From Enchytraeus crypticus (taxonomy: Eukaryota > Annelida > Clitellata > Enchytraeida > Enchytraeidae): a DNA stretch of 64,000 nt. Where the stretch lies: positions 188,501-252,500 of the forward strand of contig CAJHZI010000373.1 in the NCBI GenBank assembly GCA_905160935.1, written 5' to 3'. Within the stretch, counting starts at the first letter, position 1; each line of letters opens with the position of its first letter. The position numbers and the translations under genes are program-made. The notes under the pieces are model-generated. The model was not told the origin of the DNA. It was given only the letters and a program-made list of their open reading frames with translations, and did not search any database. This document shows positions 1,302-61,634 of this stretch, piece after piece.

Positions 1302-1451
1302 CTAACTGGCTGGTAGTTTATTCTGCTTGGTTCTGGATGCGGTAAGGTAGACGACGTCCGAGATGTATTCCAGATATTCCAGGAACGTCATAAAGGCGAT
1401 TCCGAACCACAATCCCAGTATTCCACCAATATCCGACAAGTATTGAATGAA
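1302..1451 (-). CDS. Channel gene exon 13: TM2, selectivity filter, C-terminus
   Basis: 50 codons including TAG. LSDIGGILGLWFG is the classic pre-TM2/TM2 motif. The position usually read as the G-x-S selectivity filter is G-I-A (residues 927-929), an Ala where Ser is typical. FLEYLEYISDV keeps the acidic residues on the inner side of TM2. The cytosolic tail is short (about 20 residues) and has no PY motif. Confidence 0.92.
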   Translation of the reverse strand, partial: FIQYLSDIGGILGLWFGIAFMTFLEYLEYISDVVYLTASRTKQNKLPAS

Positions 1452-2196
1452 CTGAAATAGTAAGTAAGTAAGCACTCACTATAGTGAAATGATCAACTAT
1501 GTTGATACCTATCACTTTTAACACCACATGTTTAATCCGTTAGGCAATTTAGACCATTTTCCGTATAATCAGTCCAATGAATGTCCGAGGTTTACTCTCA
1601 GATCAGCGCGGCTGGGATTCGAACCACGAGAGTTCAATCCACCTCAGGATTTGTCATTTAAAACTTCCTGACGTTACCCCTACGCAATTTAGACATTCTA
1701 AATAAGCATTGTTCAATATTTTATTTTATTTGTGTTTCTCTTTCTCTGAGGTTCTGCCAAGTGGCAGGTTCAAGGTGACTCCTTAAAGAGCACTTCTTTG
1801 ATCAATGAGTTAATCCATGCTCAATAGGCTATGCCTGGTCCTCATCTTAATGTAACCTATAGTTTGGTAATAATACTGCTTTTTTACGGGCAAGGCAAGA
1901 ATAAGAGTATCTTTAAAGCATTAAAATCTGTAAATAGGCTACAGATAAATGATGTGAGACAATATAATTTTTGCAAACTAAAAAATTAATACTTTTGCAT
2001 GTAGCTTAGTCTACAAAGCCTGTAAGGGAAATTAGGCCTAGTCTAATTTAATTTTCTTTTACCTTCTTGTGCAGTTTAGTGGATTTGCGCACCAAAAGTA
2101 GAAGTGAACAAAAATTATGAAGTTTCTAACAATACCAATTACTGTTAGAATGAATAGCATATCTATAATTATTGTTATTATTATTATTGTTATTAA

Positions 2197-2261
<65 letters not shown>

Positions 2262-4120
2262 TTGTTATTATTATTGTTATTATTATTATTAGGCCCTATT
2301 ATTATTATTACAGTAAACTAGTAACGTTATACTACCAAATAATCGGGATCCTCCTGAAGCACTTCGTATGTTAGAGTATCGTAGTACACTTCCAGTTTTA
2401 TCAGATTCTGTCTGATAGCTTCCTCTGTTAGATTCCATTTATCTCCCAAGCTTTCCTCGAGACTCTCAAGTAATCTATCCTGCAGGGGTTAGAAATCCAG
2501 CTAATAAATCACTCACGAATGCATTTTATTTATAGTGAGAATTTAATTTTGTAACGTTATTTTTTATTTCAATTTTTAGTTTCAATTTTTATAATTAAAT
2601 TCTTCGATTCAAAAAGTTATTTTTATTTAATTATTTTAATTTTTGTAATATTTTAAATTATTGATTTTTGTGAGAATTTCATTTTTTAGGGAGAATGCAT
2701 TTTATGTTATATTTTAGTCGAGAATGCATAATATTTACTAAAAAATAGCTAATTTATAGTTAGTGACATCTACTTAGTTAGTGACATGAGCTGTTAGAGG
2801 CTAAGCAAACAATTATTATTGGTTGTAACTATTAATTTAATTACTTAATTATTAATTAATTTTACTAGTATTCCTTCATTTAGACCATACAAACCCGCGA
2901 GACTTCGTTTGGCCACGAGGCATAAGAGTCTTGAACACTGTACAGTGTGTCGCTGAAATAAAACACATAATCGAATTACATTATTGCATTATTACATTAT
3001 TGCATTATTGCATTATTGCATTATTGCATTATTGCATTATTGTATTATTGCATTATTACATTATTATATTACATTATTAAATTATGCGTGCAGGTCCATT
3101 GCACAATATACTAAGTGAATGGGAGCACTATTAGTGTAAAAATCAATCAATTAATCAATCAATTAGCAAAAGCAATAAAGCTAATATTAACGTCAGTTTC
3201 CTCACTCGAAAGCGATGTCATTGACGGGCGAGACCAGGACTTGAACCTCGCACATAATGATCCGCGGTCCAGAACCTTACCGACATCGCCACTGGCTCCA
3301 ACCAATTAATTAACAAACACGCAATTGATTATGAAAAAGATAAAGAATACTAATAACCGCGAAGTAAAGGATAAAAAATAGAACTAAAAAGCTGTAACTT
3401 AGCAAGGAAGATCTGTAGTATGGGAACAAAACAAATCGGTGAGAATTTGATGAAAGGTTCTTAATTCACCCGAAATGAAATTACGTAAGATATATCAATT
3501 ATGTAGTGGAATTAAACTACATTTAAAGAAGTTCCATCATATAATTTTTATAATTTATTAGTTTAATGTGTAGGCATACGGTGCATACATGTAAAAGCAT
3601 ATGTATCACACAGACATAGCCAACACTATAAACTGTGCAGGAGAAAAATGCAATAAGGGAAAAATGTTGATATATTAGACAACATTGTACACCCAAACGC
3701 ACTTAATTTACAGACTATAACTTTCAAATGTGTATGAAATAAATTTTAACCTGTAATTGATATGACTTATAGTAGACTAATCGAAGTTAGAATTTATTTG
3801 GAAGCCAATGCGAAGGGAAAAGGTTTTAAAGAGGTCAAAAACAACAAAAAAGCAGCTTTAAAGACAGTCTTGAAGACCATATCCGTTATAATTTGAGGAA
3901 GATGGTCATTAATGGCAATAAATTAGTTTAAGGTGTTTTAAAATTTCAGACAATCTTCTTTCAAATTGCTCAAATAAACCTGATTAAAACATGTGGTATG
4001 AAACCAAGAGGCAGTTTAGCCAGTTATCTGTTTTACCAGTCTTGTGAACGCCATGATTTTACTCTCAGATCAGCTCTACCGGGAATTGATCCCAGGACCT
4101 CAGGAATATGTCACGATGTG

Positions 4121-4156
<36 letters not shown>

Positions 4157-7100
4157 GAATAAGAATGACTTATTCTTATTCTTATGACTAAGAATAAGAA
4201 TAAGTCATGACTTTAGTGCCCTGGTGCAACGGTAAATGTGCCGTTTGGGACGTCACGGTCATTGACACTATGGCAAACTCCTACCTGAATACGACTTCAG
4301 TCACAGCCGGTGGTGCTGCTGTTCATGCCGCCTCTAGGAAGTTGGATAAATACCGTGATCTGTCCTTAGGATATGAAGTTGTTCCGGTGGCTATTGAAAC
4401 CATGGGCCCGATGAATCCCGAAGGAGTTGACTTTATTAATGGCATAGGCAGACTTATTGCAGAGCAAACCGGCGATAAGCGAGAGACATCTTTTCTTTGG
4501 CAAAGGCTTTCCATGACTTTGCAAAGATTTAATGCAGTCTGCTTCAACAATTCTTTTAAGCCGATTGATGACCTCGAGTAGCCGGGCGGCGATTCAGCAC
4601 GTATTGCTCGAATCGTTTTTATCAAACCCCAGGTTCTTTACACCGGGGTATAAAAAAAAAGAATAAGAATAATAATAATAGCACGTGAGCACGAGGGTGA
4701 TCGTCAACGGGTTGAACACAGCCCGTCTGAAAGAGAAGAGATGCGTCCTACGTCCCGGCCTCTCAATACCTCCCTCCTCCTCCTCGAGTGCGTCCATAGA
4801 GCCTGAGCTACATCCACAAGAGTTTTCTGGGCTGACCCTCAGCGAGAAAAAGGAGATACTCGAGGCTAGAATGGCCTCTACGTCCCAGGGGTCCCTCCCA
4901 CTAGGGCCACAGCACCAGGGTCTAGGGCTGAACCAGGTGCTGGCGTCAGGGCAGGCTGAGGCAGAGAGGCAGAGCTCATCGGGTTTTACAAATCAGAGCC
5001 CTAATCAAGCGGAAACTAGATCCAAGAATTCTCTAGGAACAGCTATCCAGATTTCAGGGTTGTTGACTTCTAAAAGCGGTTCTCCCAACAGAGTTCTCAC
5101 AACTGTCTCATCAACGCCTATTCAGGGGAGTCACCGTCGTCGTGGATCGATAACAGAGGAAGAGGGGACGGGCGTTGCTGGAGCCAAAAAGTAGTGGATT
5201 CAGGGCAATGTCACCCGCTGCTGCGATCAGCAACGTTTAACTTTCGCAAGAATAATAAGAAAAGAGCAACTGTCGAAGATAATAATAATAATAGTAATAA
5301 TAATAATAATGATAATAATAATAATACGCAAATTTACGCGAAAAAGCTTTTCTTTGGTGGCGACTGTCTATTGCTCTCCAGCGATTCAATTCAGTCTGTT
5401 TCAGTGAGACTTTGGCTATGCGGCTTACCAGAGTGTAGAGGAATTATTTTAATCGCTTCTTTTTAAAACTTTTAATTAAATAAAGCCTCTTTTATCTTAT
5501 TTTTATTTATTTATTTAGCCCAGGGCCCTTTACAGCCCAGGGCATTAATTAAAAAAAATAAAATAATAATAAAGATTTAACGTCCGTTTCCTCATCAAGG
5601 GCTGATGTAAGGGACGTCTATATATAACGCACTTACACACGGAGCTATTGGACACTCTACTAACCTGCATCTCTCTGGACAGTTACACTGGAGTTTGTTG
5701 GAGCCATGCAGTAGAGAAATGTTGTAAAGGCAATCTCCTGAAAATTTATAAAAATGTTTAGAATTGTTAATATACTTAACAATATTGATAAGTTTAATGA
5801 AGTAAAATGAAAGAAAATTACGACTGCTGACCGTCTATCTGCTGAAAACATTGGCAAGGTAATGTCGATAACACTTTCTGAAAATAATAACAGCTCTAGA
5901 AAGAAATCTGGAGTATATTTGATGATTATCATCATCATCATCCTCCGTTGAATTCCAGTTTAATCGGGGTCAGAATACAAATAGACTGTCTCAAATCCTC
6001 TCTGTCCTACATCACACCACCAGCCAATCCCCTATTTGAGACTTTCATTTGCTTAAATTTGTGTAGCAGTTTCTGAATCCTAGGCGCTCACCAACCGAAT
6101 GCCCTTTCTGACATTGGTATGGATCTTAGTGCTTCAGTCGCCTTCTACCACACGTGCAGTCACCGGTCGGTCAATCCTTCAGACAACCCGGAGTATATCT
6201 GACGACATTATTTCAATATTTACCATTAACTAATTCGCTAATAAATAAATCAATAATTAATGACGCTAATCAATTAATGAGCTAATTGTTTTTATCAAAT
6301 AAGTAACTTATTAGGACATTTATCCAAACCTTCAGAAAGGATGGATGAGCGACAGAAAGGCACAGGGGCGTTGTCATCTGTGGCCCATGAAAGGGGCATG
6401 TTAACATCAGCACAGCCACATCTCTCTATGACACTCCTCTGATAGCAACTCTTCTCACAAGCCTACATCAAAATCAATATTATATTATTTTAAAACTTTA
6501 TATTATTATACAACTCAATATTATATAAACTGAATGAGCTTCTAGTCTTTTAGTTAACAAAAGCTGGTAAAGCTTATGTTAACGTCAGTTACCTCACACG
6601 AAAGCGATGTCAGTGACGGGCGAGCCCAGGATTTGATCCCCGTATATACTGATCCGCGGTAGAATATCTTACCGACATCGCCACTGGATCCAGCCAGTGA
6701 ACACGGATGAAAGTTCTAGCAAAAGTCTCCTTTATAGCCCACATACACGGTATACAGGAGAATCAAATTTTAGAGTTGAAGAAATATGTGACTGTCAGTT
6801 AATCGCCCTCCTAGCAGTCATTAAAGGTCTGGCCAAACGTGATTTTAACTTCACAACTGGTAGCGATTTTGTTTGTGACGGTAAATGCGCTTATTGATTG
6901 CCTCGAGATTCATGGTAATGCAATAAAAATGTATTTAAAGTCCGGTTCATCATCTGATGATGGTATATGGGAGGTCTCCGACATCGTACCCTGGTCAATA
7001 TCATTTGATAATTAGGCTGACAGTGAAGAAGATTCTGCAAAACAGGCTATGGATAACTTAATGAAAATTACTTTGATGGAAGTTTCCCTTTAGATATATG

Positions 7101-10100
7101 AATTGCATGGATGAATAACTGCTAAATTAAATTAATATAATTTTAAAAGCTGGTAAAGCTAATGTTAACGTCAGTTTCCTTACTCGAAAGCGACGCCAGT
7201 GACGGATGAGGCCAGGTTTTGAACCCTGCACATACTGATCCTTGGTCGCATATCTTAGCAACATCGCCACTAGCTCCAGCCAATATTAGTAATAAATAAA
7301 TAATAAATAGTTAATTAATAAATAAAGGTAAGTAATATATCAGAGCAAAGAGTAAATTGTGGTTCAGCGTCCCCCGTGCATTGCTACAATATACATGTAT
7401 ATACTACAATATTAGTATTCTGTATCTTATAATACATGTATATATTCTATAATATTATACTGTATTATATAATATAATGCCGTGATATGACACAGTGTGC
7501 CGTATAATATAATACAGCACACTGTGCTCACCGTTTGGCTGTACTCCACTGAAGGGTAAGAGATCTCGTAATAGTTCAGAGCTGGGTTGTGCAGATCTGA
7601 TGTACAGTCTCCGTATGGCTTAGACTCTCTGCCTATCTCTGTCTGTAGCAATCAAACAGTCAATAATAAATAAACAAGTAGATAAATCAATCAATCGATC
7701 AGTCTATCAATCTATCATTCGATCACTCATTCGCTTAACCAATAAATGAATCAGTCTATTAATCATTCCATCAATCAACCAGGTAATCGGTAAATCATCA
7801 AATACTCAATCAACCAATAAATCAATGAATTCATATATTTGCTTTATACTATCACTGCTAGAGAACTATTTATACTGAGCGAAGTTTGTTGTATGTAACA
7901 GGAAAAGTTGTCTAACGGAAAACTTCAAAAATAAGATTTAAACTTTAAGACAATATAAGGTTTAACGTACATTAGCTACAATAGATACTTTCACTGCAAT
8001 AAATTCATTAAAATAAATAATATTCCTTAAAAATAAAAATAATAAAAACACGCACTATAGAGAAAAGATCTACTATGTTGATATCTATCACCTTTAACAC
8101 CACATATTTAAACCGTTAGACAATTTAGTCCGTTTTCCCGTATAACCAGTCCAGTGAATGTCCGAGATTTTACTCTCAGATCAGCGCGTCTTGGATTCGA
8201 ACTCACGAGAGTTCAATTCACCTCAGGATCTGTCATTTAAAACTTCATGTAGTTACTATTTCGCTATTGAGACATTCTAAATCATTTAATTAATATTATA
8301 AAATTATTTAATTATGTAATCGTCGAATTAATATAATTCGTGATAAGAAATAATTGTGCAATAATAAATTTCCAATAATAAATTCTTTGGTTAAAATTAA
8401 ATAATTTCGACAAAGCAGTATATAAGGAAGGCTACGCTGTTTAGAATAGCTCCATACCCTTCTAACCCTCACGTAGCTGGCCCGACCAGGGGGGAGAGTT
8501 AACCCATCATCCTCAGGGAGGGGCATGAGGTTCTGAGCCTGCACGAGCAGCCTGGCCCCTGCTATCTCCCCAGCGTCCTTTATGTACTCATCCTGATCTA
8601 TGTTCAACAGCATCTTCAGTCCTACATGACGTCAGGCAATTAGACAATCAACCAATAGCATCTACAGTTCTGTGTGACATCAGGCAATTAAATAATCAAC
8701 CTATAGCATCTTCAGTCCTGTGTGACGTCAATTAAACAATCAACCAATAGCATCTTCAGTCCTATGTGACGTCAGTCAATTAAACAATCAAGCAACAAAT
8801 CTGTCAGGTAATCAATCGTTAAATCAATAAAGTAGTCAATAAATTAATCCATCGGTATCTTTTCTGAAAGATTAAAATCTATTTTTTTTTTTTTTTTATT
8901 ATTAGCAATGAGTCAATGACAGCGAGTGTCTGAAATAATATTTCAAGACAACAACCAAGCATATAAAAAACGGATATTCTTGTTTTAATTCTGAGCACAA
9001 TATTCCTATGCATTGACTTCACAGCACATTATTCCCCTACTTTGACTTTATAGCACAATATTTCCATGTAGTGTCTTCATTGCACAATATTCCCATGTAT
9101 TGACTTCATAGCACAATATGGCCCATTCTTTAAATCTCATAAGAACTCGTAAAGTTTACCATATTGTCGTCCGCTCTTTCCACTCACACGAGTTTCCGTA
9201 GAATTCCACCCAGAGTTGAATATGTAGCAGTTTCCGTAGATAGGATTGTGAAATTTTCTAAAATCCCTGAGCAAGAAAAAATATTTTAAAATGATTACGG
9301 ATAAATTTTGATGCAACACATGAGTAAGAGTTAAGCTTAAGATTATAAAGTAAACGGGCTGCTAGCAGTCCATGCAATAGATGGACTGTAATTTACATAG
9401 CGGTTATAAGTAGATAATTAATCAGGATTATCAGGTAATGAACATTTGAAATTGCATTGCAATGAGTTCATAATACACTCTAAGCTTAATGCTGATTTTG
9501 TTTCAGTCGCTCAAACTGAAGTCTCTTATAGTCATGAATAAGAATTCAACCAGGCAATCTGAATGACGAGTTTCAATCTAATTTAATTTAAATTAAATTA
9601 AGCATTATAATACGGACGTACATGTAAACAGAATTAAAGTCTTTTGTGCCACAATACGGTGTTGTCATGGAATTACTTGACAATAAGCTTGTCTTGACAC
9701 TTATATCAATGAAAAAAGCCTAACAAAAGAAGAAAAATATGAGAGTGGGAGTTTGCAAACAGTCCTAGACATTGATCCTGGCCTAGAAAATCATCAGTTT
9801 AGAAAGATCTCGAGCAAATAACCGAATGCAAATATAAGAAAATCGTTCAATAAATATTTTACGCCGTCGGTCATTAATGTAGTGACACGGTTGATATGTA
9901 AAAGGGCATACTACAAATGCACAACAGTAAATTAGTATTCTGATTGAATAATTCTTTCTCCATGAAACTTAATTTTTCTTTGTTTTTCTTTGAATGAATG
10001 AAAATATAAAACTGCCTGAGAGAGTTTCTATTTGCTCAAAATATTTTGAACAATAGATAGATTCGATAAAAGTTTTACTTTTCGGAAAATATTAATTCCT

Positions 10101-11578
10101 TTCAGAGGGTGCTAGCAGATTGGAATAATTTCAATATCTATCTTTTGTCAGAACATTAATAAACAAAATTTCAATATTTGTGTATTATTATTGTATTTTA
10201 ATTTTTATTATAATTTTAGAATTACCCATCTGAAAACAGTATTCATGACAGAAATAACAACAGAGAAGAGATCACGAATAAGGAGCTAAATCAAAACTAT
10301 TAAAATATCAACCTCTCCATGTTGCACTCTTCTTCATGGAATTCACAACTTAGTATCAGATCAGCTATAGCATATCCTAGACTATCCTTTTCCTGCTCGT
10401 TTCGCTCAGCCAGATCTTCCGTGAAAGCCTCCATCGCTTCAAACTCTTCCGTCAATGCCACCCGGTCTTCAAAAGCACTTCCGCTCAAAGATGGCGGTGG
10501 TTGTAAGTTCGATTCCCCGTCTCGCTGATAAAGCGGCGAAATCGTAGTCGAAGGAAATTGCGTGATGTCACATAGAGCTGCCTCAGATATGTTATCCCCA
10601 GAACATCTAGTGCATCTAGAATCATCCATTAAACAGCAGTGACAACAGCACTGTAAATCCGTGCGTAAAGTAACCGCTGCACTTGATGGAAGATTCTCAG
10701 TAGTAGTGGCCAGTGATGTTGTCATGGACGGCGTTGTATTAGCTGATGAAACTGTTTGACTGCTGCTTGGTAATTTATCAGCAGCGGTCGTCATTGGTGA
10801 AATTGTTGTTTGTGCTGCTGTTGGAGAAGTCATTTGTGGAATTGTTGTTTGCGAAGCTGTTACAGAAGTAACAGGTAAAATTGTTGTTTGTAATGTTGTT
10901 GGAGAAGTAACAGGTGGAATTGTTGTTGATAATGTTGTTGCAGAAGTCACTGGTGAAATTGTTGTTTGTGATGTTGTTAAAGAAGTCACTGGTGGAATTG
11001 TTGTTTGTGATGTTGTTAAAGAAGTCACTGGTGGAATTGTTGTTTGTGATGTTGTTACAGAAGTCATTGAAGCAGATGTCGTTATAGATTCTTCTGTTGT
11101 AGATTCAAACGATGACGACGTTACATTATCCACTGGAATTGTCTGCTTGGTCGTTGCTCTCATTGTTGTCAAGTCTTTAGACGACTCCTCTCTGACGTCA
11201 CCCGCTGACGTCACTTGTTTTGAAGTGACGTCATTCGCTGACGTCACTTGTTTTGAAGTGACGTCACTCGCTGACATCACATGTTTTGAAGAGGCAGAAG
11301 ATAACTCAGGAGTGAGCTGTGAAGAAGTCACGCTGACACCAGATGTATCTGTCTCCCCTGTGGTTGTTGTTGTTGTTGACCTGATGTACTCTGAGCTTCT
11401 CTCAGAGCTCACTGTTGTGGTCCAGTCTGCAGTGTTTGAGGTAGATGGCGCGGAGAAATAATCTATGAGTAGCGTTACATGTAGCAGTTATCAACAAAAA
11501 TTTCATTTGTATATATTAGTAACTCTACGCAGCGACACCATCGATCCAACTCTCTCTCTCTCTGTCTCTCTCTGTCTT

Positions 11579-11619
<41 letters not shown>

Positions 11620-14600
11620 TATCATGATGCACTCATTGGCTATTTAATTAGTTTAATAATTTCATTGTACTCACTGGCTACATAATTTTAGTGGAATAGT
11701 TTCTCTATACTCACGGGCTACATTTTTAATAGTGGAATAGTTTAAGTGTACTCACTGGCTAATAATTATTATTACTAATTATTAATAATTACTGATAATA
11801 ATTATTATCTATAGTGGAACAGTTTCTTTATACTCACTGCCTATTTTGCAGATGAACATTTGTTTCTCAGTGCAGGTTTTATCTTCGAATTCTCCGCCTC
11901 CCTGGATGTATACGCAGATGGTGTTGTCGTTGGGTTGACCGTTCTTCCACAGGCGGAATGTAGAAGGATTTCCATCCAACCAATATGACGTGGCATCATT
12001 TGTGGGATTAGTGAAATTCTTAACCAATCCAAACCAATACTTCTTGCCCGTCCTTGCAACACTATAATTACGAAAAATTCATATTAATAAAGATCTTCCT
12101 TAAAAGCACTCATTGTTTCAAACAACTTAGATTATATTGTAAACTAGGTGCAGGTATTAGGTAAAGCATTATAATATAAAAAGAAAAGAAAATTTTGACA
12201 AAATGCAAACCTCTTTCTGTCAGAGATATAAAAGTTCTGTTGTAAATTCACATTCGTTTGTTAAACCATTAAACATCTAAATGTTAGAGCCTTGTAAATC
12301 TGGTCTTCACGTTAAGCAGATTAACAAAAAGAAATCTTTCACCAAATTAAAGCGGTTATAATTTATTATTTCAACCGTAATCACGCCAGAACGTGAAATG
12401 ATTACGAAGAAGAAAACGGCTGAACCAGTCCCTTTTCGTTTTCTTTTAATATTTGTCGATACCATTGAGTTAATGAAATAAATCGGGCTGAAGCCAGTGG
12501 CGATGTTAAAAGATATTCGACCGCGGATCATTATGTGCGGGGATCAAATCCTAGGCTCTCCCATCACTGACGTCGCTTTCGAGTGAGGAAACTGACGTTC
12601 ACATTAGCTTTTTAAAACATAAAATAATTATAAATGAAATTATAATCCTGTTACTGATGATGATTAGGCTATCATCTGTTACTGATGATGATGATTATCA
12701 CCCGTTACTGATGATGATTATCACCTGTTATTGATGATGATTATCACCTGTTATTGATGATGAAGTCGTATTCATTCTGATCTGAGACACTCGCAAGCTC
12801 CGCCCCTGGCGTCACGTGACACAAGGACCTGGCCGTGTACCAGTCCTCCTGTGCCTCAGAGACGTAGTAGCAGTTAGTGGAGTAGATCAACCAGTACTCA
12901 GGGCAGCTCACCGTGGCTTTAGGAAAATAGTTGAGTAATAGCAACGATAAGAGTAACGATAATAGTAATAATAATAAATTAATAATAATAATCTTAATGA
13001 ATAATAATAATAATAATAATAATAATTACTACTAATAATAATTCTATGGCAGAGCCTGTCTATTGCACTACAGCGCTTTCTTGCTGTCTTGGCACATTGG
13101 CGAATGTGGCCTCCCAGAGAGTAGAGGAACTATTTTAAATATTTCTTTTTCATCTTTCTTTTAATTAAATAAAGTCTTTCTTTTTCTTTTATTTTTAGCC
13201 CAGGGCCATATACAGACCAGGGCAATAAATAATTTAATAACAATTATTATAATAATAATAATAATATTAATAATAATATCATTGAGAGTAATAACAATAA
13301 TATTGATAATGATAATACCAATAATAATAAGGCCAATAATAATAATAATTATAAATATAATTATTATTATATATATAATAAATTATTATAATATATATAT
13401 AATTATTATTATATATATAAATTATAATAATAATTATAAATATTATTATTATTATAATTATAATTGTAATAAATATAATAAAAATAATCGTTTTCATAAA
13501 ACCTCAGGTTCTTTACGCCCGGGGTAAAAAAATAAAATAACAAAATAAAAATAATATTTGAATTGTAGCTGTAAACAATAGCAACATCGTGCACTCTGGA
13601 AACAATAAAAATCCGACTAGCAAATTACAGAGGGTTCAATAAACGGTGCAAATTCAATATCCGAAAAATCAGCCAAAAGATAGCAAGATCAAAGAAGGCG
13701 GCTTACATTTCTAAGGTAACGTGTTTGCTCATTGAACGTAACTAAAATTAAAATATAAATAGGATCAACTAATTATACAGGTAAAATATAGTGTTTTTAA
13801 CCTACCGAAATAGGGCCCAAAATCAATAAATGTTCCTTCCAAACTAATACGAAATCACAGAATATCTGTTGAATGCGGATATTATATTTTATATATTAGG
13901 GTTCTAACGATATATTGCTTGTTGTACTAGCTAACGAATAGTGGATTCGATTGGTTGAAGGCGAATAGTATAAGAACTACGGGAACGAATGTATGACGAT
14001 AGGTTTTGCCAAGAGATGAGCGTCTCAAATTCTCTTTTACTTCCCATATACATGTACGACTCCTAAGTCAATATAATTAAGATTTAAAATATAGGCAATC
14101 AATCAATGATTACAACAATAAGCATGGAGAGGAAGGAGAAAGTATTGAAAACTTTCAAAACAGAAACTAGATAAGGAAACTATTTAGACACGTGCGGTAT
14201 GTCATGTCTGTGAGCTAAGTGCAAAACAAAAAAATAATAGTTTTTAAGCAATAAAAAAGACAGCCAAATAGCGACATATTAAAAACTGATATTTCGCAGT
14301 AGTAGGCCTATTGGCTAAACAGTAAAATCTTACATCTCTTTCCACGTGATGCGCCTACTTTAGATTCAAGCTGCAGCTTTTCCCACAAAACCCTTTTCAC
14401 GGGATTTACATTACAGACAGTGACGGCAGGGAATTCCAGTTCTGTGGCGGAAAGTACAGAGACAGAGACAGCCACAGGGTAACTGAAGTACCTTCTCGTC
14501 AACGAGTAGAGGTTATATACCATTCCACCAGTCCCAGCCAACAATATCAGACCCCAGAAGCATCTCTTAATTACCCCTATTAAGAAATCAATATACTAAT

Positions 14601-15503
14601 ATATAAAAATATAATATATTAATATAATATAATATGTTAATATATTATATTAATACATAATCGGCTGTATAAATATATTATAATATACATGTATAAATAA
14701 ATTATAATGTATTTATAATAAACTCCGATTTATATAGAATGACAATGTAGAGTTGTATTGACTTTGTATAGTCAAGAAAAGTAGAGGCAAAATACCATAA
14801 TCAGTGAAGGCAATATCCTGTGTAACAGCACGACCTCTCCTTGCCTCGCTTTCATTACTTCATTATTACTTCATTATTACTTCATGATTACATTACTATT
14901 ACTTCATTATTACTTCATTATTACTTCATTATCATCCCATTAGGACTTCATTACATATGTATAATATTATACTAATACATTGCATATACTATAATATTAT
15001 AGGTAGATTTACTTTTTAAACTTGTTGATCACTGTTCTGTAGATACACAACAGCTTGATCATCGTTCGGTTTTGTTTTGATTCGAAAAGGTTTAACGCCT
15101 GAATCTATCTTTGACATGAGGATAAGATAAGAAGTTTTAAGCTTAATGACGATAAAGTATTCGACCGCGGATCAGTATGTGCGGGGTTCAAATCCTGGGC
15201 TCTCCGGTCACTGACATTTCTTTCGAGTGAGAAACTGACATTAACACTAGTTCAAAAAAATCTAATTCTGTTTTACTATTTAATTAACATGTGATAATTA
15301 AAATTATCATTTTCATGAGATATTTAAATGCGGATCAAACCTCGGGATTGGAAGAACCGGGGTATCCCATGAGCAGAGGTGTCCTGATTCAGACTAGTAA
15401 GGACGGACCCGTAGCTGGGTCTGTGGACGGGGTCATCACGAGCCTGGGTTTGGGTCATACATCGATACAGTGGGTTGTTTGGTGGGCTTCTCCCATCGGC
15501 CAT
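1302..15503 (-). CDS. DEG/ENaC channel with C-type lectin and mucin insert, 13 exons, 959 aa
   Basis: Exons in transcript order: 15503-15341, 14576-14334, 12916-12748, 12052-11838, 11462-10313, 9266-9160, 8621-8458, 7642-7532, 6462-6330, 5737-5665, 2952-2895, 2479-2336, 1451-1302. All junctions are GT/AG, phases agree at all 12 introns, and the sum is 2880 nt (960 codons with stop). An in-frame TAA precedes the ATG. The product should be an amiloride-sensitive-type Na+ channel subunit with both termini cytosolic. Seen: HG gating motif at residues 45-46, TM1 about 60-82, FPAVTVCN after TM1, C-type lectin about 137-263, Thr/Ser-rich region 265-525, Cys cluster 535-561, ASC ectodomain about 620-905 (YGNCYIFN, PYGDC, CGCAD, CNCPERC, SWPNE) and TM2 about 911-940 with GGILGLWFG. 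The roughly 510-residue insert is not part of any ASC architecture I know. Seven exons match ASC signatures independently. Ligand and partners are unknown. Confidence 0.92.
1474..1701 (-). repeat. SINE-2 copy
   Basis: tRNA-like B box GGTTCGAATCCC on the minus strand inside a conserved unit of about 230 bp. It lies in the last intron of the channel gene. Confidence 0.75.
1738..1890 (-). repeat. Dispersed repeat related to 33575-33785
   Basis: Shares the GGCAGGTTCAAGG block and the following 120 bp with the copy at 33575-33785. Confidence 0.6.
2165..2300. repeat. ATT/AGT trinucleotide microsatellite
   Basis: Long ATT and TAG triplet runs next to channel exon 12. No coding meaning. Confidence 0.9.
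2336..9266 (-). CDS. Channel gene exons 6-12: ASC ectodomain
   Basis: Exons 9266-9160 (HNPIYGNCYIFN), 8621-8458 (GLKMLLNIDQDEY), 7642-7532 (PYGDC), 6462-6330 (CEKSCYQ, CGCADVNMP), 5737-5665 (CNCPERC), 2952-2895 (ASWPNE) and 2479-2336 (LIKLEVYYDTLTYE). These are the diagnostic blocks of the DEG/ENaC extracellular domain in the right order. The 58-nt exon 11 was found from the expected SWP block and restores the phase between exons 10 and 12. Confidence 0.92.
2972..3080. repeat. 9-bp tandem repeat (ATTATTGC-type)
   Basis: Repeated ATTATTGCA units directly upstream (minus sense) of channel exon 11. Confidence 0.85.
3171..3304 (-). repeat. SINE-1 copy
   Basis: tRNA-derived unit of about 135 bp. 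In sense it reads GCCAGTGGCGATGTCGG, then a B box GGTTCAAATCC, then the tail GAGTGAGGAAACTGACGTTA. In a channel-gene intron. Confidence 0.8.
4018..4119 (-). repeat. SINE-2 fragment
   Basis: Only the central block with ACTCTCAGATCAGC and CCTCAGGA is kept. Confidence 0.6.
4120..4206. repeat. AAT microsatellite and hairpin beside TE fragment
   Basis: An AAT run is followed by TTATTCTTATTCTTA and its inverted copy AAGAATAAGAATAA around a short GACT-type loop, forming a hairpin just before the element at 4207. Confidence 0.7.
4207..4670 (+). mobile_element. 3' part of an autonomous retroelement-like ORF with A-rich tail
   Basis: An open frame (4207-4581) with LVPWCNGK, VWDVTVIDT, ETMGP and FLWQRLS resembles a recurring C-terminal segment of invertebrate retroelement proteins, from memory and not checked. 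The sequence then runs through CCAGGTTCTTTACACCGGGG to an A tract. The same 3' end recurs at 13480-13535. The 5' part is missing. It lies inside a channel-gene intron on the opposite strand. Confidence 0.55.
4685..5194 (+). mobile_element. Unidentified ORF, probably TE-derived
   Basis: An open frame of about 170 codons, Ser-rich and Gln-rich, with no domain I recognise. It sits between AAT runs and TE fragments in a channel-gene intron, so I take it as part of a mobile element and not a host gene. Confidence 0.35.
5352..5558 (+). repeat. Dispersed repeat shared with 13040-13232
   Basis: Blocks CAGAGTGTAGAGGAA, TTTTAATTAAATAAAG and GCCCAGGGCCCTTTACAG recur in the same order at 13040-13232. 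Confidence 0.7.
5928..6185 (-). repeat. GAT-tailed dispersed repeat (family 3)
   Basis: Reverse copy starting with a CAT run and ending at CACGTGCAGTC. Confidence 0.75.
6559..6698 (-). repeat. SINE-1 copy
   Basis: Full-length, in the channel-gene intron between exons 9 and 8. Confidence 0.85.
7145..7282 (-). repeat. SINE-1 copy
   Basis: Full-length, in the same intron as the copy at 6559-6698. Confidence 0.85.
8050..8278 (-). repeat. SINE-2 copy
   Basis: Full-length, closely matching 1474-1701. In the intron downstream of channel exon 7. Confidence 0.75.
8609..8790. repeat. Tandem repeat (about 48 bp, 4 copies) overlapping channel exon 7 acceptor
   Basis: Four units each contain CATCTTCAGTCC followed by a GTGACGTCA-like block. 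The first unit includes the real exon-7 acceptor and its first 11 coding bases (GACTGAAGATG on the minus strand); the other three carry the same sequence upstream of it. Confidence 0.85.
8996..9122. repeat. Minisatellite, about 30-bp unit, 4 copies
   Basis: Imperfect units of TTGACTTCATAGCACAATAT next to channel exon 6. Confidence 0.75.
10313..11462 (-). CDS. Channel gene exon 5: mucin-like region, Cys cluster, start of ASC ectodomain
   Basis: One 1150-nt exon, residues 264-647. The first part is rich in Thr/Ser/Pro, as in O-glycosylated stalks, and contains three 11-residue repeats (322-353) and seven 13-residue repeats (399-489). A compact cluster CCCHCC with three more Cys follows (535-561). 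An acidic linker then leads into LGYAIADLILSCEFHEEEC, the first conserved cysteine motif of the ASC ectodomain. Because mucin and ASC signature share one uninterrupted exon, the fusion does not depend on any splice prediction on this side. Confidence 0.92.
10786..11058 (-). repeat. 39-bp coding minisatellite (13-residue mucin repeat)
   Basis: Seven units of the pattern TTSQTTIPPVTSx within channel exon 5. The first units are nearly identical and later ones diverge, as in a recently expanding VNTR. Confidence 0.9.
11191..11289 (-). repeat. 33-bp coding minisatellite (11-residue repeat)
   Basis: Three units resembling SKQVTSANDVT in channel exon 5. Each DNA unit carries TGACGTCA-like palindromes. 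Confidence 0.85.
11550..11625. repeat. CT microsatellite
   Basis: CTCTGTCT-type run between channel exons 4 and 5. Confidence 0.9.
11838..12916 (-). CDS. Channel gene exons 3-4: C-type lectin domain module
   Basis: Exons 12916-12748 and 12052-11838. The two-exon module begins and ends at phase 1, so it can be inserted without breaking the frame. Seen: CPEYW opening with an extra Cys pair (long form), W..AR..C, YWFGL in the WIGL position, WLDG, QPND in the EPN/QPD position, FEDKTC in the WND position and the closing FICK. Six cysteines (140, 151, 168, 239, 252, 260) fit three disulfides. Only part of the calcium site survives (QPN kept, WND replaced by FED, no Glu before the middle Cys), so the sugar specificity is uncertain. 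The first acceptor has a short pyrimidine tract. Confidence 0.88.
12487..12613 (+). repeat. SINE-1 copy
   Basis: Lies between the two C-type lectin exons, opposite to gene sense. Confidence 0.8.
12660..12765. repeat. TGATGATGATTATCACC tandem repeat
   Basis: Several units of about 26 bp. The last one contains the donor of channel exon 3. Confidence 0.75.
13040..13232 (+). repeat. Dispersed repeat shared with 5352-5558
   Basis: Same ordered blocks, flanked by AAT runs at both ends (12960-13040 and 13240-13470). Confidence 0.7.
13240..13540. repeat. AT-rich microsatellite and retroelement 3' end
   Basis: ATT/TA runs lead into CCTCAGGTTCTTTACGCCCGG and an A tract, the same tail as at 4610-4660. 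Confidence 0.7.
13578..13685 (+). repeat. Dispersed repeat (family 5)
   Basis: Diverged copy of a unit also seen at 30420-30540 and 42725-42842, recognised by CACTCTGGAAAC and AACGGTGCAAATTC. Confidence 0.55.
14334..14576 (-). CDS. Channel gene exon 2: TM1 and post-TM1 motif
   Basis: Encodes residues 55-135. RCFWGLILLAGTGGMVY is TM1, and FPAVTVCNVNP is the conserved stretch just outside the membrane. It enters at phase 1 and leaves at phase 1 (AGAT|GTAAGA). In ordinary DEG/ENaC proteins the finger and palm region would follow; here the next phase-compatible exon is the C-type lectin. Confidence 0.9.
14853..14950. repeat. CATTATTACTT tandem repeat
   Basis: 11-bp units in channel intron 1. 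Confidence 0.8.
15144..15251 (+). repeat. SINE-1 copy, 5' truncated
   Basis: Starts near the A-box region. Lies in channel intron 1. Confidence 0.75.
15341..15503 (-). CDS. Channel gene exon 1: start codon and cytosolic N-terminus
   Basis: 54 codons plus one base (phase 1). It ends with the motif TSAHGIPRFF. His-Gly at residues 45-46 is the conserved DEG/ENaC gating motif, normally about 15-20 residues before TM1, as here. The donor is G|GTTTGA. A TAA lies in frame upstream of the ATG, so 15503 is the first usable start unless a 5' UTR intron intervenes. Confidence 0.88.
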
Positions 15504-25864: not shown

Positions 25865-26826
25865 CAGGGTGAGTAAAAAATGATTACACCTGCAAAAAGT
25901 TTGAATATCTCAGGCTATTGTTAAAATTTTCACATTAAACTTTTACCAATTACTAAAGATCTAATTTTGGATGGGGTGGCCAATTTTCATCAATTTTAAT
26001 CTAAAGATTAAAATGGATTAAAGTTATACAAGTTTCAGCAGAGCAACCCCCCATTTTGTATCTTAAAATGGCGTTTGCTACAAAGTAAGGGCAAATTGCA
26101 CTACTTTGTCGAGAAGGAAAAGATGAGCGCTCAGTATTACGTCAGTACTTTAATTCCCAAGCTATTTTATGATTGCTATGCTCTTCTACCAAATGGTTTC
26201 ATCTTTCACCAGATTGGTGCTCCGGCTCATGTTTCTCGTAATGCACAGGAATGGATCAGCGAGAGAAATCCTCATTTCATCAAGAAGAGTGGATGTCCTC
26301 CAAACTCTCCCGATCTAAATCCACGGGATTACAATGTCTGGGAATCCATGCTGCATCTCTATCAGAAACACCAGTCGAAGCCTAAAAACAAGACAGAACT
26401 GCAGGAAGTGCTACAATCAGTGCTACAATCAATATGGGAGAGACTGCCTCAAGCTGGAATCAACAAGGCTGTCCTAGCGTTCCGAAAGCGACTGCAGTCC
26501 TGCGTAACTGAGGGAGGAAAGCATATCGAATAGGCAGCAATGCTAGCAGATACAACTGGTTCTTTTTGAATCACCACAACGACCCTTTTCAGGGCCAAAA
26601 AAATAAATTTAATGTCTATTTATAGTACATTCAAAAAGGGGGGCGTTGCTCTGCTGGCCTCTGCTTACATAACTGGCCAATCTATGTATTAATATGGATT
26701 AAAATTGGCCAGATCATCCATAATTAGTCCTTTAGTAATTGGTAAAGTTTGATTTGAAAATACTAACAATAGGCTGAGATATTCAAACTTATTGCAGGTG
26801 TTTTCACTTTTTTTTTACTCACCCTG
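25865..26826 (+). mobile_element. Internally deleted mariner-like element
   Basis: Inverted termini beginning CAGGGTGAGTAAAAAATGA run for about 200 bp. Inside is only the C-terminal part of a transposase (26075-26533) with GAPAH and PNSPDLNP. The Asp before GAPAH is Ile, and the N-terminal DNA-binding region is missing, so the element is non-autonomous. Confidence 0.85.
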
Positions 26827-35975: not shown

Positions 35976-36722
35976 CAGGGTGCGTAAAAAAAAGATAACA
36001 CCTGCAAAAAGTTTGAATATCTCAGGCTATTGTTAATATTTTACAATAAAACTTTTACCAATTACTAAAGGACTAATTTTTGATGGGGTGGCCAATTTTC
36101 ATCCATTTTGGTACATAGACAGGCCAGTTATGCAAGTTTCAGCAGAGCAACCCCCCTATTTTTACCTAAAAATGGCGTAAAGCACCTCCTGCAGTTCTTT
36201 CTTGTTTTTAGGCTTCGGCTGGTGTTTCTGATAGAGATGCAGCATGGTTCCCCAGATATGGTAATCCAGAGGATTATGATCGGGTGAGTTTGGACGCCAT
36301 TCATTTTTCTTGATGTAATCCGGTTTTCTCTCGCTGATCCTTTCCTGTGCATGACGAGATGCATCAGCCGGAGCACCATTTTGCTGAAAGATGAAACCAT
36401 TTGGTAGAAGAGCATGGCAATCATCAAACAGCTCCGGAAGCAAAGTACTGACGTAATACTGAGAGTTCAACCTTACCTTCTCGTCAATGAAGTGCAATCT
36501 GCCCTTACCGTTGTAACAAACGCCATTTTAAGGTAAAAATGGGGGGTTGCTCTGCTGAAACTTGCATAACTGGACAATCTATGCACCAAAATAGATGAAA
36601 ATTGGCCACCCCGCCAGAAATTAGTCCCTTGTTAATTGGTAAAAGATTAATTTACAAATATTAACAATAGCCTGAGATATTCAAACTTTTTGCAGGTGTT
36701 ATCATTTTTTTTACTCACCCGG
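35976..36722 (-). mobile_element. Internally deleted mariner-like element
   Basis: CAGGGTGCGTAAAAA terminus flanked by TA at both ends. Minus-strand transposase remnant (36162-36497) with FIFQQNGAPAD and PNSPDHNPLDY. The catalytic Asp is Asn. The same N-terminal deletion point as 25865-26826, with an extra deletion of the C-terminus. Confidence 0.85.
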
Positions 36723-59360: not shown

Positions 59361-61634
59361 CTATTTTCTACAGGGAAATCCTAATCCAGCCATATCCTCC
59401 GTGACGTCATACACGGCGTCGATGTTAATGAGATCACCGTTGGAACAGTCGAGAAGTACAAGCTGGGGAATTGAATTCACTCCAAAAATTTTACGAACCT
59501 TTTTCGGAAATACCGAAAAAAATTGCAACCTACATGTATCTATCACGTCATAATTTAACATTTAATTAATACGTTGTTGTGCTGTAGCGACACACTCTAT
59601 GGTACAACAACAACATTACACCATGCAATTGAAATTCTACTGCCATCCATGAAACCATAGAGCACTGTGAAGTCAAAATTAAGCGGCTCTAAAAATCAAA
59701 AAGATTAATCAAAGGTTCAATTCCAAAATTACGAAACTAGACCAAGGATAAGATAGTACATTTTTATTGCCAAAATGTAATTCTCTGCTGACTGTGAAAC
59801 TATATAAAATTATCATTCTATGAGAATTTAACATGTCTTTCTACGGTAGAAGTTGTTACCAGAGACGCAATTTAATTTGTATTTATATCATATAGCTACA
59901 GCTAATGTTAACGTAAGTTTCCTCACTCGAAAGCGATGTCAGTGACGGGCCAGCCCAGGATTTGTAGACCGCACATACAGATCCGCGGTCGAAAATCTTA
60001 CCGACATCGCCACTGACTCCAACCAAATTAGACATACGATGTCGTCAAGTAGACAGGATTGTTTTCTCGGGGAATGACGCCCCTGCCCAGTAAATACTAG
60101 TCGAAGCAGAGGAAGGCATAGGGGGCCCACCTCGTCATAAGTAAAATCCCCAAGAATAATGGTATATCATGTTAGATGATTTAAAGATACACTCGTAAAT
60201 GAACTTTGAAGAGAAAACGGAAGACAGTGTTATATATCATGGACCTGCCAGTGGGTAGTACTAAGAAAGAGACAAGAGAGAGCGAGAGAGATAGATAGTG
60301 AGAGAGAGATCATATATACCGTTCTAGTCCTGTCGCTGAAGGGCAGAACTAACCAGGGCATGGAGCCGAAGTATTCACTCCACTGGGCCTCATCCTTGTC
60401 AGAGCTGACGTACACTACCTCCAGCTGGTAATTCGTCCTGTGATAGAAGTGCGCCAGGTCAGGGGTGAAGCCCCTACACGGGCCACACCAGTGAGCCGAA
60501 AAATATAAACCTGTAAATAGACAACGAGAAGATTATTGTAAGATATGAGATGATCGCACTGTGGGTGGTGATGGGGAGGGGGAGGGATTAGGAGAGATAT
60601 CACAGTTACTATAATATTTTAATTATTTGAGTACTAAATTACATTACCCTTAACCTTAACTAAATTAATTTAGTCTTACTTCTTAACAGAATTACATTAT
60701 TATTAAATGAATTACATAACTCATATTAACAGAATTACATTATTATTAAATGAATTACATAACTCATATTAACAGAATTACATTATTATTAAATGAATTA
60801 CATAACTCATATTAACAGAATTACATTATTATTAAATGAATTACATAACTCATATTAACAGAATTACATTATTATTAAATGAATTACATAACTCACATTA
60901 ACAGAATTACATTATTATTAAATTAATTACATAACCCATATTAACAGAATTACATTATTATTAAATTAATGACATAACCCATATTAACAGAATTACATTA
61001 TTATTAAATTAATTACATAACTCATATTAACAGAATTACATTATTATTAAATGAATTACATAACTCATATTAACAGAATTATATTACTCTTAGACCAGCT
61101 GCAGTATTCTTAACTGAATTAAATTAATTGTTAGTAAATTACATCACTCTTAACTTACAAGGTTAAACAAGGAAACTCTCAGAGTTTAACTCTGTAAACA
61201 TGTGAATAGAGCATTAAGCATAACCAGACTAACTAATAATTAACTCTTCCGTGCATTTCTCTCCTCAGTTTCTCTTTTCGTATTCATATACCAATAAGTT
61301 ATAAAGCTGTCATTTCAGTCTATTAATAATAATATCGCCGTCATCGCCTGGAGTCAGTGGCGATATCGATAAGATACTCGACCGCGGATCAGTGTGTGCG
61401 GGGTTAAATCCTGGGATCGCCCGTCACTGACACCGCTTTCAAGTGAGGAAACTGACGTTAACATTATTTTTACCAGATTTTTACCAGCTTTGAGTAATAG
61501 GCTTGCAATACACACACACTATTCAAGCACATACCGATAACTTTTCCGGAACTGACAAGACTCGAGACCGGTATCTGCTCATACTTTCCATTGACCACAA
61601 CCGGTCCCAGAAGATATTCAATTTCTCCGCCCGT
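59361..61634 (-). CDS. Nucleoredoxin/tryparedoxin-like protein, 5' incomplete
   Basis: Exons 61634-61535, 60510-60320, 59498-59361; 429 nt, phases 1 and 0, ending FPCRK-stop. YFSAHWCGPCRGFTP is the active site of the thioredoxin_8/nucleoredoxin group. VVYVSSDKDEAQW, FGSMPWLVLPFSDR, GVNSIPQLVLLD and a terminal FPxR block follow in the family order. The motif is WCGPC (as in classic thioredoxin) rather than the WCPPC common in nucleoredoxins. It is probably a cytosolic disulfide oxidoreductase. In the first exon found, an in-frame TGA lies just upstream and there is no ATG, so a short first exon is missing: unrecognised in 61635-64000 or beyond the window. The acceptors at 61635 and 59499 have weak pyrimidine tracts. 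Confidence 0.82.
59896..60025 (-). repeat. SINE-1 copy
   Basis: In an intron of the nucleoredoxin-like gene. Confidence 0.8.
60171..60300 (+). mobile_element. LINE 3' terminal fragment with GA tail
   Basis: Ends in the GAGA run only about 20 bp from the nucleoredoxin-like donor at 60319. Confidence 0.7.
60684..61083. repeat. 43-bp minisatellite, about 9 copies
   Basis: Units of AACAGAATTACATTATTATT plus AAATGAATTACATAACTCATATT, nearly identical. Confidence 0.95.
61347..61491 (+). repeat. SINE-1 copy
   Basis: Full-length with a small internal tail duplication (TTTTTACCAG twice), 44 bp from the nucleoredoxin-like donor. Confidence 0.8.

Follow-up and report, generated by a model that had tools for sequence, protein, structure and literature searches.

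Does one ion channel gene carry a C-type lectin and a mucin-like stretch in its outer part, or have two neighbouring genes been read as one? The question is raised by a 64,000-nucleotide (nt) stretch of Enchytraeus crypticus DNA (contig CAJHZI010000373.1, positions 188,501 to 252,500; G000:C286:188501-252500 of a 524-Mb, 802-contig animal genome assembly), which is called the window here and to whose own numbering the coordinates below refer. A first-pass annotation had described at this place a DEG/ENaC channel with a built-in lectin. In our gene model, 12 GT-AG introns of consistent phase link 13 exons, all on the minus strand, from window position 15503 to 1302, which bears out the 13 phase-consistent exons proposed there. 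The predicted product is one open frame, as had been stated, and has a single terminal stop, but it comprises 962 residues (not 959), and the start of the second lectin exon has to be moved from 12052 to 12061. The locus appears to be a single gene for an ENaC-like (DEG/ENaC, ASC) subunit whose outer part contains a lectin-type domain and a mucin-like stalk.

Both domains were recovered when the product was scanned with Pfam profiles, in agreement with the expectation of the first-pass annotation: ASC (PF00858; E 3.3e-87, 293.8 bits against a curated cut-off of 23.6; best stretch at residues 606-942) and Lectin_C (PF00059; E 1.1e-15, 58.7 bits against 22.6; residues 158-264). The layout of DEG/ENaC channels is present in order, i.e., HG motif, first transmembrane segment (TM1), Cys-rich ectodomain and second transmembrane segment (TM2), and the HG motif of exon 1 (DTSAHGIPRFF) aligns with the solved ASIC5, FaNaC1 and ENaC alpha. 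Between TM1 and the first conserved ASC cysteine, the gene structure places the lectin and the mucin-like stretch in frame, as had been claimed. Residues 276-545 consist of 27% Thr and 19% Ser, and these Thr/Ser-rich repeats suggest a mucin-like stalk that would be O-glycosylated. Its passage through a Cys cluster into the ASC motif LILSCEF does lie inside one exon (exon 5, 11462-10313), which is open throughout. The features of the gene are as follows; exons 6 to 13 were assigned by the gene model, Pfam and matches to solved structures, and the basis of the others is given in brackets.

15341..15503, minus strand: exon 1, start codon, cytoplasmic N-terminus and HG motif (SAHGIPRF) (gene model; alignment to ASIC5, FaNaC1 and ENaC alpha)
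14334..14576, minus strand: exon 2, TM1, post-TM1 strand (FPAVTVCNVNP) and furin-type motif RGKR at the 3' end (gene model, alignment; recurrence of the motif among spliced copies)
12748..12916, minus strand: exon 3, first half of the C-type lectin-like domain, entered in phase 1 (gene model, Pfam, lectin profile)
11838..12061, minus strand: exon 4, second half of the C-type lectin-like domain, left in phase 1, with QPN instead of EPN/QPD (gene model, Pfam, lectin profile)
10313..11462, minus strand: exon 5, mucin-like stretch rich in Thr/Ser, followed by a Cys module (CCCHCC...C..C), a finger segment and the ASC motif LILSCEF (gene model, Pfam; paralog exons by eye)
9160..9266, minus strand: exon 6, ASC ectodomain (HNPIYGNCYIFNSG)
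8458..8621, minus strand: exon 7, ASC ectodomain
7532..7642, minus strand: exon 8, ASC ectodomain
6330..6462, minus strand: exon 9, ASC ectodomain, Cys-rich
5665..5737, minus strand: exon 10, ASC ectodomain (CNCPERC)
2895..2952, minus strand: exon 11, ASC ectodomain
2336..2479, minus strand: exon 12, ASC ectodomain up to pre-TM2
1302..1451, minus strand: exon 13, TM2 with G-I-A (G-G-S in ENaC beta), C-terminus and stop

The genome itself bears on the choice between one gene and two. Searched against it, the window lectin gave at least 69 matches (the window's two included) and PF00858 at least 94, both lists scoring the best candidates only, so that the counts are lower bounds. Among the matches listed, 52 of the ASC matches are of TM1 type, and 14 of these have a lectin match no more than 15 kb downstream on their own strand. 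Such lectin matches number 23 of the 69; uniform placement would give 0.05 instead of 23, a comparison in which many matches are tandem copies and the events are not independent. At 15 loci beyond the window (C158, C407a, C407b, C586a-e, C586g, C586h, C587a, C587b, C669, C743a and C743b), a TM1 exon is followed on the same strand by a first and a second lectin exon, the lectin exons being recognized by profile, and an exon-5-type ASC exon lies downstream at all of them (at nine in longer DNA, at six C586 copies by genome match). The nine loci with longer DNA continue in order with the exon-5-type exon and later ASC exons, and the TM2 exon follows in order at eight and was found by genome match at the ninth (C407b). 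In place of the single fusion first supposed, there is a tandem-duplicated family of at least 16 loci of this kind, the window gene included. At C586f, the second lectin exon alone was seen within the 4 kb examined. In C669 (G000:C669:84416-85207, 89831-95342), a single TM1 exon and a single exon-5-type exon flank two complete tandem lectin cassettes, and this locus may encode a double-lectin channel or mutually exclusive cassettes.

Misjoining of two neighbouring genes, with a lectin gene nested in a channel intron, is permitted by the phases, which would allow exon 2 to be spliced to exon 5, but the recurrence of the same order and strand at 15 other loci makes two separate genes, in our view, very unlikely. 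The distances among copies argue the same way, those of TM1 and lectin being correlated overall (Mantel r 0.885 with n=14, and 0.75 among the 10 divergent copies; both p 1e-4, the floor for 10,000 permutations).

The structure of the gene is conserved among the copies. Fourteen TM1-lectin pieces (13 paralogs and the window), spliced at sites chosen in the window's phases, are free of stops. When the best-scoring splice site of each copy was compared with the phase of the window model, it lay in the expected phase for 14 of 15 exon 3 acceptors, 13 of 15 exon 3 donors (C743a being a tie), 14 of 17 exon 4 acceptors and 16 of 17 exon 4 donors. For exons 5-13, the nearest in-phase dinucleotides within 45 nt of the window-model position were taken in five paralogs (the exon 5 acceptor and exon 11 left out, exons 8 and 12 in C743b only). 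At the majority of these junctions the deviation from expectation is no more than 2 nt, and for the acceptors of exons 6, 7, 9, 10 and 13 this applies to all five paralogs. Larger deviations were 39 nt for the exon 12 acceptor of C743b, 28 nt for the exon 9 donor of C407a, 5 nt for the exon 9 donor of C743a and 4 nt for the exon 10 donor of C158. By eye, the Cys module and the finger segment leading to the ASC cysteine are found in each of nine paralog exon-5-type frames, and Thr plus Ser reach at least 30% over the whole open frame in eight of them (all except C669). These frames measure 148 to 1892 residues from stop to stop, values that are upper bounds because non-coding ends are included. 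In the lectin, positions C4, C15, C32, C105, C119, C127, G67 and L68 are invariant in all 10 aligned copies, which show the conserved cysteines and the WIGL-type core motif of the lectin fold.

In TM2, G/S-x-S is typical of DEG/ENaC channels without being defining. G-x-A is found instead in the window (GIA) and in all five paralogs inspected (C743b GFA, C586a GIA, C158 GLA, C743a GVA, C407a GLA), and it is possible that G-x-A in place of the GGS of ENaC beta alters ion selectivity. We did not take G/S-x-S as defining, because another ASC gene of the same genome (C371) matches the whole Pfam ASC model (E 5e-58) with neither TM2 motif. ASC matches were also found on C338 and C435. On C387, there are three exon-5-type matches; the window lectin query gave no match there, and another lectin query gave weak matches (E 0.037 and 1.8) upstream of two of the three. 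C387 may be a lectin-free relative with the same Cys module, and as such might represent the ancestral state.

The lectin has been kept by selection in most of the close pairs, five of which were compared for the ratio of nonsynonymous to synonymous rates (dN/dS) and four by Fisher test (C586c/C586g left out). Between C586a and C587a, there are 30.5 synonymous and 12.5 nonsynonymous changes in 129 lectin codons (dN/dS 0.10; p 1e-12), and for five ASC exon segments of these two genes the ratio is 0.23. Constraint was also found in C586b/C587b (p 8e-4) and C586c/C586d (p 5e-5), i.e., the lectin is under purifying selection in three of the four tested pairs. A chance lectin-like reading frame was considered and rejected on this result and on the Pfam match (E 1.1e-15).

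The xPx loop of the lectin is variable across copies (QPN, EPD, NPN, NPD, YPK, KPN, GPA and DPG). The same channel might then be a recognition receptor (for self and non-self or for microbes) with diversified loops and ion flux as its signal, and to the variable loop can be added the tandem expansion (at least eight second-lectin-exon matches on contig C586) and the PAN and F5/8-type-C exons elsewhere in the window. Receptors of this kind fit poorly with purifying selection on the lectin in three of four pairs and significant positive selection in none of the four, and we regard them as distinctly unlikely.

The place of the insert suggests how it might work. According to PMC6197857, the GRIP domain of ENaC lies between helices alpha1 and alpha2, the first furin site is on the N side of its P1 strand, and removal of the GRIP segment has been proposed to act on the finger. 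The first-pass annotation had taken DEG/ENaC channels to have a compact loop here, which does not hold in general: by alignment spans, the stretch between the TM1 part and the first conserved cysteine measures about 138-148 residues in human ENaC alpha, beta and gamma. ENaC alpha can be aligned with the window protein as far as its residue 140 ahead of the insert and again from its residue 279 onward, and the insert therefore occupies the place of the GRIP stretch, which is protease-sensitive in vertebrate ENaC. Ahead of the lectin, and at most nine residues from the end of the TM1 exon, a furin-type motif (R-x-K/R-R) is present in 13 of the 14 spliced copies, in the window copy as RGKR; C407b and C586e, which are outside the 14, likewise have RRKR. 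By eye, no furin-type site was seen at that place in the non-lectin ASC genes C371 and C119. The predicted motif would put a furin-type site into the alpha1-alpha2 segment, as in ENaC-like protease-gated subunits. C119 (L002) has a Ser/Thr-rich segment at the same finger position, without lectin or Cys module, and the stalk may accordingly have preceded the lectin.

The reading that we tentatively prefer, at slightly less than an even chance, is a DEG/ENaC subunit with lectin, stalk and Cys module in the place of GRIP, in which cleavage frees a ligand-binding head that acts on the pore. It starts from what is observed, namely how the gene is built, which domains it encodes, that it belongs to a family, that the furin-type motif is conserved and that the lectin is under selection in close pairs, and from these we infer cleavage, surface assembly, O-glycosylation, a ligand and an effect on gating. 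A furin-type protease would cut RGKR|S after the post-TM1 strand, leaving an N-terminal TM1 chain and a second chain with lectin head, stalk, Cys module, finger and TM2, and the ASC fold would hold the cleaved subunit together. After the cut, the lectin would form a free head on top of an O-glycosylated Thr/Ser-rich stalk that is fixed to the finger via the Cys module; by binding a surface or matrix ligand, the head might pull or release the finger and so change the opening of the pore. Variable loops and the spread of exon-5-type lengths suggest copy-specific partners, and with diversified binding loops and stalk lengths each copy could have its own ligand and reach. That these genes form an undescribed, lineage-expanded DEG/ENaC class, in which proteolysis at the finger frees the lectin head and ligand capture or pulling opens the pore, seems plausible to us but rather less than probable.

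In the same channel, the lectin could be an adhesive or mechanical tether, or an anchor for placement, with gating by force that is independent of sugar recognition and of cleavage. ENaC shear sensing is reportedly tied to its N-glycans. A sugar motif that is not conserved suits such a tether, and the range of exon-5-type frames (148 to 1892 residues, as upper bounds) is expected if stalk length matters, but a furin-type motif in 13 of 14 copies suggests that processing matters too, and we consider a mere tether somewhat unlikely.

Several observations weigh against the cleaved, ligand-binding head that we prefer. EPN or QPD together with WND are the canonical motifs of sugar-binding C-type lectins; EPN/QPD occurs in none of the 14 spliced lectins (QPN in the window), the sole sighting being EPN in C407b. 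We do not, therefore, class the window lectin as sugar-binding, and the glycan part of the channel idea is weakened; gating tied to glycan binding, as first inferred, is not supported in that form. At the cleavage site, C669 has just KSKR, which is no full furin motif, and its exon-5-type frame has 7% Thr and is not Thr-rich. By eye, no conserved polybasic site was seen after the stalk, in the C-terminal part of the nine paralog exon-5-type frames, and for this reason we do not predict release of an inhibitory peptide in the style of ENaC. In C586e (G000:C586:110128-110334), the second lectin exon is interrupted by an in-frame stop, and C586g (G000:C586:150648-150899) is missing the last lectin cysteine; these defects may be recent decay or assembly error. 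The lectins of C586d and C586g differ by 11 nonsynonymous and 1 synonymous changes (p 0.31), which is not distinguishable from neutrality; positive selection in this pair was rejected on the same value. For the exon 2 donor, the phase-1 site is the best-scoring one in only 9 of 15 copies (the window's exon 2 being outside these 15). The TM1 part is slightly nearer to the solved ASIC5 and FaNaC1 (E 1.9e-11 and 4.8e-11, the best matches) than to ENaC alpha (9.3e-10), and the likeness to ENaC consequently rests on the core. Synonymous rates (dS) of the TM1 exon and the lectin are unequal within pairs (0.15 vs 0.45 in C586a/C587a, 1.03 vs 0.22 in C586b/C587b, 0.14 vs 0.62 in C586c/C586d), so exons may have been exchanged between copies. 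Exchange or conversion between family copies is likely; the lectin is retained in the channel genes, but exons may have been traded among them.

Exons 3 and 4 form a lectin cassette of 393 nt with phase 1 at each end, which could be skipped with the frame kept, a further point on the same side; phase alone is no proof that the lectin is included, because the skipped transcript would also be in frame. Alternative splicing might thus give, besides a lectin isoform, an ASC channel without lectin (exon 2 joined to exon 5), and the two tandem cassettes of C669 are in line with optional lectin exons. That 13 of 14 copies have a furin-type motif ahead of the cassette agrees better with normal inclusion, and we think optional use unlikely.

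Elsewhere in the window, the minus strand at 28682-57154 contains exons with PAN domains (in 3 of 10 open reading frames scanned, with further similar frames by eye) and exons with galactose-binding-like domains of the F5/8-type-C family (also in 3 of the 10, of which one scores under the Pfam cut-offs). They seem to belong to tandemly arrayed genes for secreted or surface proteins, close to the lectin channel. Two long frames at 26012-26530 (plus strand) and 36165-36527 (minus strand) resemble, by eye, what we take to be mariner/Tc1-type transposase fragments; the former has no Pfam match. A thioredoxin-like exon (Thioredoxin_8, E 1.6e-19) at 60233-60532 on the minus strand is presumably akin to nucleoredoxin. 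Outside the window, the COX1 gene of the assembly was located on contig C802, where its frame contains 12 TGA codons.

How DEG/ENaC channels are coupled to an extracellular tether, ligand or protease is a long-standing question. A family with its own binding head and stalk at the protease-controlled gating element of ENaC would make this coupling directly testable through loss or replacement of a single exon cassette. It would also show the entry of a phase 1-1 cassette into a channel ectodomain and its subsequent spread by tandem duplication. The predicted architecture points to channels that might directly sense their surroundings or attach to them; if the preferred reading is true, they would be ion channels equipped with an exchangeable tether or receptor of their own.

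In the literature searched by title and the start of the abstract, which left subscription papers mostly outside, no ASC channel with a C-type lectin domain was found among the papers listed, and a term search of the main text of three DEG/ENaC papers (PMC9822975, PMC10507113 and PMC10148893) did not return the word "lectin". Automatic database annotations of an ASC plus Lectin_C architecture may exist. Among the C-type lectins, the window domain matches 174 distinct PDB sequences at E of at most 0.001, with the yolk-sac IgY receptor, PLA2 receptor, LY75 and mannose receptor at the top; unlike the lectins of PLA2 receptor, mannose receptor or DC-SIGN type, it lacks EPN/QPD and sits inside a channel ectodomain. 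A C-type lectin domain is also present in polycystin-1, a membrane protein associated with channels, but polycystin-1 belongs to the TRP-type polycystin family, which is unrelated to DEG/ENaC. ASIC and FaNaC channels share the HG motif, TM1 and the ASC ectodomain with the window protein, and we know of no lectin domain in them; their core matches (ASIC2 6.1e-33, FaNaC 1e-27 and 5.3e-22) are lower than that of ENaC beta (4.8e-44). ENaC beta and alpha (2.5e-43) are the closest solved ASC cores, and in ENaC, as in the window protein, a large insert separates the post-TM1 strand from the first conserved cysteine. As described in the accessible part of PMC6197857, the ENaC insert is the GRIP beta-strand segment, with no lectin, mucin or Cys module there, and ENaC alpha and gamma have protease sites in it, the first on the N side of P1. 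In TM2, ENaC beta has GGS where the window protein has GIA.

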